Shown: one piece after another, positions 3,675 through 56,299 of the stretch
How positions within the stretch are numbered: position 1 is the stretch's first letter
How the letters are laid out: every line of letters begins with the position of its first letter
Origin: an uncultured Prevotellaceae bacterium
Lineage (GTDB): Bacteria > Bacteroidota > Bacteroidia > Bacteroidales > Bacteroidaceae
Length of the DNA stretch: 64,000 bases
Assembly: GCA_900318115.1 (NCBI GenBank)
Contig: ONJJ01000005.1
Location: 47,043 to 111,042, forward strand
Reading direction: 5' to 3'
Translations under genes and position numbers: made by a program
Notes under the pieces: generated by a model
The model's database searches: none
What the model was told of the DNA's origin: nothing
Seen by the model: only the letters and a program-made list of their open reading frames with translations

Positions 3675-3721
3675 CATCATGATTGGCAGTATTGCCAGTT
3701 ATAACCTTAAACTTTATTACT

Positions 3722-5053
3722 ATGGTAGAAAATTTACCTGTAAATCTAACCGAAGAGAGCATGGAGCGGACCATGCAGAACACGAGTAATGCAGCGCCCA
3801 CTGAGGCGACTGCGACTAACCAAGACTCCCACGATACGGCAGTTAGTGCCGGCTTGGCGATGGGGGTGAATACACAAGAAGACGAGAGCGACGAAGCAGA
3901 GGATCTGCGCCTCCTGCGGCAGTATCTCTCTGAAAATTATGAACTGCGCACGAATGTGGTGGCGGGGCGTGTGGAGTACAGAAAGCTGGATGGTACGGAT
4001 GGGCCTTTTCGCCAATTGACCTTCGAGGCTGAGAACTCTATCGTGCTGGAGGCGATGACGGAACTGGGAAAGGTGAAGGGAGTGAAAAGCATCCTCTCGA
4101 TGCTGCTGCATTCTGACCAGGTGACCGAGTATGACCCCGTGCGCGAGTACCTCACTACCCTACCCCGTTGGGATGGGCAAAACCGTGTGGCTGAGTTGTT
4201 TGGGCGTATTCCGGGCATCTCCACCGAGAACATCCTGCGCTGCAGCATCTGGATGCGCTCTGCGGTGGCTCACTGGCTGAAGATGGATGAGTTGCACGGC
4301 AACGATGTGGTGCCCACCCTGATTGGCGACCAGGGCTGTGGCAAGACGGTCTTCTGCCGCCGACTGCTGCCCGCGCAACTGCAGGGTTACTTCCTCGACC
4401 GCATCAACCTCTCGAACAAATTTGACAAGGACATGGCGCTGACGAACAATATGTTCGTAGTGCTGGATGAGTTCGACCAGTACTCCGTGAGCCAACAGGC
4501 CGCGCTGAAGTATGCCATCTCCCGCTGCGAGGTCAACGCGCGTCCTATCCTGAAAGGTGCTCAGGTGGTGAGGCATCGCTATGCTTCGTTCCTGGCGACG
4601 ACGAACAATCCTCGTCCCCTGACGGATCCTACGGGTTCGCGCCGCTACATCTGCATCCGCATCACTCCGGGTGCCATCATCGACAACACGCTGCCCATTG
4701 ACTATGACCAGCTGTATGCACAATTGGTGGAGGAGGTGTGCGAACGGAAGATGCGCTATTGGTTCGATCCCGGCGAGACGCATCAGCTGCAACTGGACAA
4801 CCTTCCTTTCCAGCACGAAGCTGATGCCGAAGAGATGGTGGATGCTTGTTTCGAGAAACCCGAAAGCGAAGAGCAGGGTAGGGAGTACTCGATGGGCGAG
4901 ATTGTGGAACTCGTGTCCGTGCGCTTTCCTAACGTGAAGTGCACCATGGCGCTGAAGTTGAAGTTGGGCAGTGCGTTGAGGAAGCGCGGTTTTGTCACCC
5001 GACATCGCAAGACGGGCAATTTTTATGTCGTGATGCCTAAGTTGGCTGCTTAG
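3722..5053 (+). CDS. VapE/VirE-family P-loop ATPase (phage/plasmid primase-helicase-like)
   Basis: The 443-residue protein belongs to the virulence-associated E family (PF05272), a D5-like helicase group found in phage satellites and islands. A Walker A motif GDQGCGKT lies near residue 202 and a Walker B motif VVLDEFD near 246; FLATTNNPRPLTDPTGSRR resembles the sensor and arginine-finger region. The first ~60 residues are low-complexity and polar. I chose the ATG at 3722, which begins MVENLPVNLTEES, because an upstream TTG start at 3683 would sit on the transcription start. The gene stands alone with its own promoter and terminators. No primase domain, integrase or phage structural gene is next to it, so it is probably a domesticated or relict island gene. 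Confidence 0.85.
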   Translation: MVENLPVNLTEESMERTMQNTSNAAPTEATATNQDSHDTAVSAGLAMGVNTQEDESDEAEDLRLLRQYLSENYELRTNVVAGRVEYRKLDGTDGPFRQLTFEAENSIVLEAMTELGKVKGVKSILSMLLHSDQVTEYDPVREYLTTLPRWDGQNRVAELFGRIPGISTENILRCSIWMRSAVAHWLKMDELHGNDVVPTLIGDQGCGKTVFCRRLLPAQLQGYFLDRINLSNKFDKDMALTNNMFVVLDEFDQYSVSQQAALKYAISRCEVNARPILKGAQVVRHRYASFLATTNNPRPLTDPTGSRRYICIRITPGAIIDNTLPIDYDQLYAQLVEEVCERKMRYWFDPGETHQLQLDNLPFQHEADAEEMVDACFEKPESEEQGREYSMGEIVELVSVRFPNVKCTMALKLKLGSALRKRGFVTRHRKTGNFYVVMPKLAA

Positions 5054-54379: not shown

Positions 54380-55687
54380 ATGAAATCGAAGTTTTTTGCA
54401 ATCCTTCTCTTACTGTTAATATCGGCCAATTCCGGCACCCTTGCCGACAGTAAGAAAGTCAAGGACCTCAAGAGCCAGAAGGCCAAGATAGAACGTGGCA
54501 TTCAGCAGTCCAAGAACGAGCTGCAGAAGACCCGTCAGCAGACCGTGAAGAAGGAACAAACGGCCGATTTCATCGAAGACCAGCTGCAGAACCGACTGGA
54601 GTATATCCATCGCCTTGAGAACGAGATAGACACCCTTCAGGCCAATGTTGACCGGTTGGAGAAGGAAGTGGGCCAGCTGGAACTGCAGGTCAACGACCGC
54701 AAGCAGAAGTACATCACCAGCCTGCGCCAGGCTCGCAACTCTCAGTCTCTGCGCAATCCTCTTCTCTTCATGTTCTCTGCCGAGACCTTTCCGCAGATCT
54801 ATCGGCGTATGCGGTATGCGCGCGAGTTCGCTGCCCTGCAGAAGAACCTCGGCATACAGCTCATCGACAAGCAGAACCGCGCTCGCGACAAGCAGAACGA
54901 ACTCTTGGCGGCCAAGCAGAAGATGAGCGAACTCGTGCAGGAGGTCATACGCCAGCGCAAACAGCTGGCAGCCGAACACTCCGTCGTCAAGGCCAATGTG
55001 GCACAGCTCCAGAAGCGGCAGAAGGAAATAGAGAAGCAGGTGGCAGAGCAGCAGAAACAACTCAACGCCCTGACCAAGAAGATTGATGAACTCGTGGCCT
55101 ACGAATTGGAGCAGGCCCGCAAGCGTGCCGAGGCTGAGGCCCGTCGCAAGCGCGAAGCAGAACTGGCCAAGGCCAAGAAAAACGCCAAATCAAATACTAA
55201 GGACAAAGGAGGAAAAGGTACGGCCGCAGGAAAGAAAACACCGCCTCCCGCCAAATGGCTGACTGCCGAGGATCAGAAGCTTAATGGCAATCTGGAGCAG
55301 AACAAAGGGCGTCTGCCCGTGCCTATCACTGGGCCCTATCGCATTGCCCGCCGCTTCGGGCTTACCCAGGTCACGGCCGGCGTCACCCTCGACAACAAGG
55401 GTACCAACTACATGGGGCAGTCCGGGGCTCGTGCACGTGCCATCTTTGATGGCGAAGTCTCTGCCGTTTTCCAGCTCGGTTCGCTGAAGAACGTACTCGT
55501 CCGCCACGGTTCCTATATCTCCGTCTATTGCAACCTCTCCTCTACCATCGTCACCCGAGGGCAGAAGGTAAAGGCACGCGACATCCTCGGCACCGTGGCC
55601 GACGACGGACAGGGCAACTACGTCCTCCACTTCCAGCTCCGCAAGGAAACTGCAAAACTCAATCCGGAGGTGTGGATAGGGAAGTGA
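54380..55687 (+). CDS. envC: EnvC-like murein hydrolase activator (degenerate M23/LytM domain)
   Basis: The 435-residue protein has a signal peptide (MKSKFFAILLLLLISANSGTLA), a long coiled coil to about residue 260, a basic Lys/Ala linker, and a LytM fold from about residue 315. The zinc ligands of active M23 peptidases are mostly gone: the first site reads DNKGTNYMGQSG without His, the second reads SVYCNLSS, and only HFQLRK keeps one His. This is the pattern of EnvC/NlpD-type activators, which switch on amidases during division. It lies 118 bp after the DUF4292 gene on the same strand. Confidence 0.88.
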   Translation: MKSKFFAILLLLLISANSGTLADSKKVKDLKSQKAKIERGIQQSKNELQKTRQQTVKKEQTADFIEDQLQNRLEYIHRLENEIDTLQANVDRLEKEVGQLELQVNDRKQKYITSLRQARNSQSLRNPLLFMFSAETFPQIYRRMRYAREFAALQKNLGIQLIDKQNRARDKQNELLAAKQKMSELVQEVIRQRKQLAAEHSVVKANVAQLQKRQKEIEKQVAEQQKQLNALTKKIDELVAYELEQARKRAEAEARRKREAELAKAKKNAKSNTKDKGGKGTAAGKKTPPPAKWLTAEDQKLNGNLEQNKGRLPVPITGPYRIARRFGLTQVTAGVTLDNKGTNYMGQSGARARAIFDGEVSAVFQLGSLKNVLVRHGSYISVYCNLSSTIVTRGQKVKARDILGTVADDGQGNYVLHFQLRKETAKLNPEVWIGK

Positions 55688-55706
55688 TATCTCTCACACT
55701 TTCTCC

Positions 55707-56201
55707 CGCGCGCGTAATAATTTTCGCGAAAAATGCCACAATCTTACGCATTTAGCATCTTATTCACTGATTGCTAATGCGTTACGCTGCGTAAGATTAT
55801 GCGTAAGATTCCTGTTTTTGCGTAACATTTTTTGGCGAAACGCGAGAATCAGTGCCAATCTGTATGAATTTCCCCTTGCTTGGAAGGGCAGACGGAACAC
55901 GAGTACCAGCAGAATTCCACTGCTGGTACTTATTTGTACCACTGCTGGTACTTTTGTGTACCACCGCTGGTACTTTTGTGTACCACCGCTGGTACAACCC
56001 CACCTGTTCCGTTCTTGTCCGGCCTGCATCAGCCAAGATTGAGCATTCTGAAATGTCCTTCCGCGCAAATGGACTAAAATCCCACGCAATCACATGGAAT
56101 GTCACGCAAAATCTTACGCAACGTAACACGTTGATATACAGCAAGAAACATGCATTTTGCGTAAGATTGTGGCATTTTTCACAAACTTTCTTACGCGCGC
56201 G
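55707..56201. mobile_element. 495-bp non-coding element with 44-bp terminal inverted repeats (MITE-like)
   Basis: The ends 55707-55750 and 56158-56201 are inverted copies matching at 39 of 44 positions, beginning CGCGCGCGTAA and ending AATCTTACGCA. A second inverted pair inside (55779-55804 with 56104-56129) matches at about 22 of 26. The motif GCGTAAGAT recurs at least five times. A third level is the palindrome array at the centre. No convincing target-site duplication or transposase is seen, so mobility is inference. Open frames through it are repetitive and not gene-like. It fills most of the 633-bp gap between envC and the next gene. Confidence 0.75.
55903..55995. repeat. Four GTACCA-N4-TGGTAC palindromes at 22-bp spacing
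   Basis: GTACCAGCAG/CTGCTGGTAC at 55903-55929, then GTACCACTGCTGGTAC at 55936-55951, and GTACCACCGCTGGTAC at 55958-55973 and 55980-55995. Spacers are TTTTGT-like. ACGGAACA at about 55892 and TGTTCCGT at about 56005 bracket the array as a further inverted pair. Confidence 0.9.
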
Positions 56202-56299
56202 TGAATGAATGATACTGTAAAGCTCTGCGAACATCAGGGACTTTTTCCGCTTATATGCAGAAAAAGGGCAAAAGATTTGGCTGATTGAATGATTTCGCC

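Follow-up and report, generated by a model that had tools for sequence, protein, structure and literature searches.

Initiator proteins that bear a helicase and work on repeats lying beside a palindromic terminal structure are familiar from AAV, with its Rep proteins and ITRs, and from geminivirus-type origins. Among bacterial mobile elements, the PICIs are described as having an origin in which an AT-rich stretch is flanked by two sets of short repeats (PMC6092414), and the Rep helicases of the SaPIs are described as recognizing iterons through their C-terminal domain (PMC7581432). As for the protein families, the BT4734-like proteins are a listed family of archaeo-eukaryotic primases and the VirE ATPases (PF05272) are predicted helicases of mobile elements, both as presented in PMC5862659. 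On the side of short repeats, the BrickBuilt MITE of Porphyromonas gingivalis is described as having a 23-nt minisatellite, 12-bp TIRs like those of the IS5-family element ISPg1, and 4-bp duplications (PMC4596501). No description of BT4734/VapE elements bounded by inverted repeats (IRs) was found in the open-licence literature searched, preprints lying outside this search, and the term 'inverted repeat' occurs 0 times in PMC5862659.

Here, we examine a short element found at 55707-56201 of the window, i.e., the whole stretch of 64,000 nucleotides that was analysed. In our best explanation, to which we give a probability of roughly 0.6, it is a copy, MITE-like and non-autonomous, of a mobile element that in its longer form encodes a BT4734/VapE primase-helicase, alone or together with DUF6078, between like ends, each end being an origin-like module. 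A class of elements that is bounded by such modules, and in which no recombinase is recognized, is apparently undescribed. The layout of the window copy is as follows:

55707-56201, no strand: whole element, tip to tip, with 39/44 terminal identity and 109-nt arms at 76%
55707-55714, plus strand: left CGCGCGCG tip, one of just 2 in the window
55740-55750, minus strand: left end, outer motif site (TGCGTAAGATT on the minus strand), from motif scans
55751-55787, plus strand: left end, 37-nt AT-rich spacer, from the end alignment
55768-55776, plus strand: core position of the left spacer, TGATTGCTA, with no strict TGATn1-3CA match, from the core scan
55788-55798, plus strand: left end, inner motif site 1, from motif scans
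55800-55810, plus strand: left end, inner motif site 2, from motif scans
55819-55829, plus strand: left end, inner site 3, decayed (TGCGTAACATT), from arm pairing and the end alignment
55903-55995, plus strand: central GTACCA-N4-TGGTAC array of 22-bp period, also in the other ten copies read
56098-56108, minus strand: right end, inner site 2, decayed (TGCGTGACATT), from the end alignment
56110-56120, minus strand: right end, inner motif site 1, from motif scans
56121-56157, minus strand: right end, 37-nt spacer, from the end alignment
56132-56140, minus strand: core position of the right spacer, TGTATATCA, with no strict TGATn1-3CA match, from the core scan
56158-56168, plus strand: right end, outer motif site, from motif scans
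56194-56201, minus strand: right CGCGCGCG tip, the other of just 2 in the window

The 44-bp inverted termini (55707-55750 and 56158-56201), which a sequence-only reading of this DNA had reported as matching at 39 of 44 positions, were confirmed by re-alignment: their local IR score is 99, and the highest score among 500 dinucleotide shuffles is 27. The pairing continues into 109-nt arms of 76% identity (55704-55812 and 56096-56204), and the inner 26-bp pair noted by the same reader falls inside them. GCGTAAGAT is found 5 times in the 64-kb window, every copy being in the element (0.38 expected; 0 of 100 shuffles got to 5). CGCGCGCG occurs exactly twice in the window, once per tip, a count that equals chance (mean 2.46) and is notable by location alone. 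The palindrome array reported at the centre proved to consist of GTACCA-N4-TGGTAC units at a 22-bp period, and all ten other copies read have it. Two of the inner sites of the window copy are decayed. Arrays of GTACCA-N4-TGGTAC type are also seen alone in intergenic DNA, at at least five places of the same genome outside the elements (L036-L040, on contigs C72, C28, C26 and twice on C34). The element had been said to lack coding capacity; this holds in the sense that no gene is recognized in it, and not as an absence of open frames, since it contains frames of up to 134 codons, and three ORFs (109, 118 and 174 aa) are located in it or span it. A folded non-coding RNA, which had also been proposed, receives no support, as an Rfam covariance search of the window gave 0 families at gathering score. 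To the left of the element, an open frame ends at 55687, which we take from its sequence to be an M23-type peptidase, and more open frames are found to the right.

The element is not alone. In the 3.33-Mb assembly from which the window comes (its own assembly), TGCGTAAGATT has 41 sites, 40 of which fall within six elements, the window one included, and the remaining one in apparent coding DNA; the reversed-motif control gave 0 matches. One of the six is a left end only. When 139 genomes of the genus were searched with the paired motif at up to 2 mismatches, it was found in 2, namely this one and the rumen genome RUG11694 (G111), and the exact motif pair gave 0 matches in viral contigs. In G111 the ends lie at five places, on contigs C31, C29, C79, C69 (where one end is seen within the 4 kb read) and C16; the ends are dispersed over 11 places in total across these two related genomes. 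Two of the places are judged orthologous between the genomes from their shared flanks and the likeness of their ends: C31 of G111 corresponds to C37 of the own assembly (ends 93-97% alike) and C29 to C38:122576 (ends 85% alike). The two ends of one element were also compared with other pairs of ends, and the left-right identity (mean 0.64 versus 0.58, permutation p = 0.054) leads us to make no claim that they are more alike.

The window site differs between the two species. Of 26 genomes searched, G111 is the one that matches most closely at the neighbouring gene. At its orthologous site, the neighbouring gene is 94% identical and the element is absent; the contig concerned, C4, has no GCGTAAGATT match. 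The converse case is that of the C16 copy of G111, whose upstream flank is 90% identical at C34 of the own assembly, where there is no element and the DNA beyond differs. The sequence-only reading would have been abandoned had there been no second copy and no empty site: second copies exist, and G111 has a site without the element, although neither a target duplication nor an exact empty site is readable at either between-species site, because the spacer is too diverged between the species. As for strain pairs, none was found in the named records searched: when the regions from B. finegoldii and P. distasonis were submitted to megablast, the only matches were the query records, and MT838283 has one flank in common with MT838091, with no match continuing beyond this flank. 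These distributions bear on another reading, according to which the ends are not mobile units but scattered sites for binding or regulation by element-encoded proteins: it is at odds with a site that is without the element despite such a similar neighbouring gene, and with a paired motif that was found in just 2 of the 139 genomes searched in the genus.

One copy bears genes between the same ends. It is the C16 copy of G111, in which ends of the window type span ~3.1 kb and enclose DUF6078, the TACCA array and a primase-helicase. The DUF6078 protein has 145 aa and matches PF19555 at 1.6e-30; the primase-helicase, of 703 aa, joins BT4734_N (PF08800, 3e-17) to VapE (PF05272, 3.5e-32) and has a DUF3874 match below the cut-off. 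These proteins have no match in NCBIfam, their PHROGs matches are DNA helicase and primase families, and the profile of the partner protein matches, in its VapE part, PDB chain 7pds (3e-20), which its depositors named 'Similar to D. nodosus vapE'. Among the aligned proteins that are flanked by IRs, the acidic pair of AEP motif I is not conserved, and their primase domain may accordingly be inactive or serve otherwise, for example in DNA binding. PF08800 (BT4734-like) genes were found in 32 of the 61 genomes searched. VapE relatives lie at six places of the own assembly, none of which overlaps the 41 TGCGTAAGATT sites, and DUF6078 was not found in this assembly. The window copy is probably a relic, since the own assembly (~87% complete) contains no primase-helicase with GCGTAAGATT ends. 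The window also encodes, at 3683-5053, a 456-aa VapE + DUF3874 protein without the primase domain, for which no flanking inverted repeat is reported.

The window element is short, has no recognized gene, has inverted ends and exists in several copies, as a MITE does, and it shares its ends with the C16 copy of G111, whose primase-helicase and DUF6078 have a putative mobilizing role. The earlier suggestion of a MITE moved by the transposase of another element agrees with the dispersed ends and with the G111 site without the element, but not in its enzyme, as the gene between the same ends is no recognized transposase. A further suggestion, that of a DNA site for a repeat-recognizing recombinase, came close to our best reading, in which a replication initiator takes the place of the recombinase.

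Inverted repeats are also found around other genes of this type. At first look, 4 of the 6 VapE loci of the own assembly had IRs holding a repeated short motif. For the 29 BT4734/VapE genes that were tested (16 fetched, 8 from public records, 1 from a viral contig and 4 seen earlier), a flanking IR of at least 45 bits was found in 8, versus 0 of 86 control ORFs (Fisher 7e-6), and the loci that were fresh, i.e., unseen before the idea arose, gave 6 of 25 versus 0 of 86 (Fisher 8e-5). At 32 bits or more, the counts are 10 of 29 and 1 of 86. The controls are mechanical ORFs of at least 300 aa from the window and the fetched loci, with 19 ORFs of a more distant BT4734 set excluded; 1 of the 19 genes tested in this distant set has an IR of 45 bits within 1 kb. 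This sole case is a BT4734_N gene on C42 of the own assembly (L174:1684-4059), with a 39-nt IR that holds GCTGACCGC repeats. Out of 40 further PF08800 loci that were fetched, 20 had a VapE-type ORF by blastp and 16 of these had both flanks (four were dropped), 3 of the 16 reaching 45 bits. The eight public records, picked from the top-ranking ones among 62 plasmid and 227 phage records, gave 3 of 8 (L189, L191 and L193). In viral contigs, single-protein queries found 0 relatives and an alignment query found 5 loci, the tested one of which (L256) has no IR. The pattern is strong, yet it is confined to a minority of BT4734/VapE genes: for 21 of the 29, no IR within 1 kb on either side reaches 45 bits, and such genes may be decayed, may belong to elements longer than the flank tested, or may be of another kind.

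Each IR-bounded BT4734/VapE gene has its own motif. Among the ten loci at 32 bits or more, the primase-helicase is accompanied by nothing but small frames in five (L161, L166, L193, L076 and L077) and by DUF6078 in the other five (L058, L171, L163, L189 and L191). DUF6078 is a recurrent companion, though not in every element; it lies beside BT4734/VapE and inside the inverted repeats at L171:1162-1599, L163:4323-4766, L189:2268-2705, L191:631-1077 and L261:593-1033, and the P. distasonis locus, whose IR is weak, has the DUF6078 and primase-helicase pair too. In the nine IR-bounded loci listed, the ORFs of at least 50 aa outside the primase-helicase are DUF6078 (four loci) or small unassigned frames, and no transposase or integrase was recognized in their ORF lists and Pfam matches, the small frames being outside the family search. 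It is in this light that one has to consider a MITE of the ordinary kind, which a conventional transposase encoded elsewhere in the genome would move in trans and for which the primase-helicase genes would be cargo only. The size, the dispersal and the intergenic placement agree with it, and a MITE with an internal minisatellite and IS5-type ends is published in another Bacteroidales species (BrickBuilt, PMC4596501). However, the genes recognized in the IR-bounded loci and in the C16 copy of G111 are the primase-helicase and DUF6078, and cargo does not predict that the same kind of gene recurs between ends of unrelated motifs. We consider such a MITE unlikely.

Most ends follow a common plan, in which inverted motif sets flank a spacer of 36-51 nt that is mostly AT-rich. 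In the window family, the distance from the outer site to the first inverted site is 36-37 nt in 20 of 20 aligned ends, with a mean spacer GC of 0.33, so that the spacer is near-constant in length while its sequence varies; inner sites begin at +47/48, with a further one at +77 to 79 in 18 of the 20 ends. The spacer measures 36/38 nt in the GGTGAC (eight ends, four copies) and GTGAAGG families, 38-40 nt in the GTGCT family, 41-42 nt in two TTGCAG families, 48 nt in one AGTGTA end and 50-51 nt in two GTGTAG families, and the script delimited no clean spacer for L191, L193 and the left end of L169. TGATNNNCA is often found inside the spacer. The core pattern TGATn1-3CA is present in 24 of 52 script-delimited spacers (mean 3.1 and maximum 10 in 2000 shuffles), a statistic that is to be read with single-base shuffles, with spacers that are not independent within a family and with a pattern chosen after some spacers had been seen. 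Of the 9 families, 8 have the core in one spacer or more, and there is no strict match to it at either end of the window element. When 45 spacers were aligned by hand, with a few offsets set by eye, the consensus read TGATWATCA. In the B. finegoldii element both ends follow the plan by eye, with spacers that hold TGATTATCA and TGAATATCA, and the right end of the P. distasonis element looks truncated. Many, not all, ends of several families have a CG-rich tip ~20-45 bp beyond the outer site, sometimes on one side only.

The same end plan is found around primase-helicase genes with unrelated motifs, and three of those families have short end pairs. Inverted end pairs of 557 bp (GTGTAGT family) and 447 bp (GTGCT family) are present in the own genome, both by position only, and the GGTGAC family has, in genome G019, three two-ended copies of ~300 bp each that were read and that carry the CG-rich tip on one side only. 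The CTTGCTAAC family, which has a VapE without primase and forms the ends of the C53 VapE locus, has, by position, six close inverted pairs of 129-147 bp in the own genome (C40:144248, C34:25786, C34:104991, C30:6859, C17:74381 and C74:10495), one of which was read. The GTGTAGTTT family has many matches in genome G003, mostly single ends with no nearby partner among the matches listed, and ten loci were read; the ends of a second pair (L247) lie 2.6 kb apart, and no primase-helicase was seen in the 1.5 kb read there. Across L238-L255 of this genome, many single GTGTAGTTT ends have CG-rich tips, and several are alike beyond the tip. The single ends that are common in G003 speak for dispersed binding sites, and a constant end geometry with varying spacer sequence suggests selection on protein binding; set against the between-species distribution described above, the reading of the ends as binding sites nevertheless appears improbable to us.

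We return to the mobile element of our best explanation. By analogy with the PICI Rep proteins, each end would be an origin-like module made of family-specific motif sets, inverted around an AT-rich spacer that often contains a TGATNNNCA-like core. The primase-helicase would bind the motifs of its own family, melt the spacer and start replication there, and this replication would underlie the spread of both long and short copies. Cutting and joining might be performed by the same protein, by DUF6078 or by host enzymes. The movement and the origin activity are what we infer from the dispersal, the presence and absence at the window site, the gene-bearing copy and the shared end plan. A more ambitious version can be put forward only tentatively, as possible but doubtful: a new class of transposons with the primase-helicase as main enzyme, which would read the motif sets at both ends, open or cut at the TGATNNNCA core and spread by replication, with no recombinase of the DDE, serine, tyrosine or HUH type involved. 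In this version the short copies would be parasites of the replication.

The short element and its relatives with replication genes suggest that DNA spreads among Bacteroidales of the gut and rumen by a route so far unrecognized. The VirE/VapE partners are predicted helicases of mobile elements in PMC5862659, an account that, in the part concerned, describes no element of this build. If the BT4734/VapE proteins are initiators of elements bounded by origin modules, then this gene family gains a role and unexplained intergenic repeats gain an origin. Mobility without a known recombinase would also become testable, with the motif, gene and short copies of each family as a built-in control for the others.

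It remains to place these elements among the known systems. They resemble the origin of the PICIs and SaPIs with its Pri-Rep, as described in PMC6092414 and PMC7581432, by their repeat sets and AT-rich stretch, by a vapE-type helicase and by a primase and helicase that are sometimes fused; the arrangement of two iteron sets around an AT-rich region is present here as a plan of sequence alone. This origin plan, together with the match to a solved vapE chain, would fit the remains of a phage satellite (a PICI-like island) reduced to two origin copies. However, the module here stands at both ends, inverted, in a small element, whereas the PICIs are described with one origin after rep (PMC6092414, PMC7581432); moreover, no second large gene, integrase or packaging gene was recognized in the listed IR-bounded loci, and neither was an integrase with attachment site in their ORF lists and Pfam matches. 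We therefore hold a satellite origin to be very improbable. The AAV and geminivirus-type systems have unrelated hosts, and no HUH nuclease was recognized here. The BT4734-like family of PMC5862659 corresponds to the N-terminal domain of the partner protein. As for BrickBuilt (PMC4596501), compared by its description, it is likewise multi-copy, intergenic and found in Bacteroidales, with a minisatellite between inverted ends, but our elements differ from it by ends of ~110 nt with repeated motif sites and by the primase-helicase of the longer copy. Among the systems as published, BrickBuilt is the nearest in form, and the PICI origin is the nearest in working.
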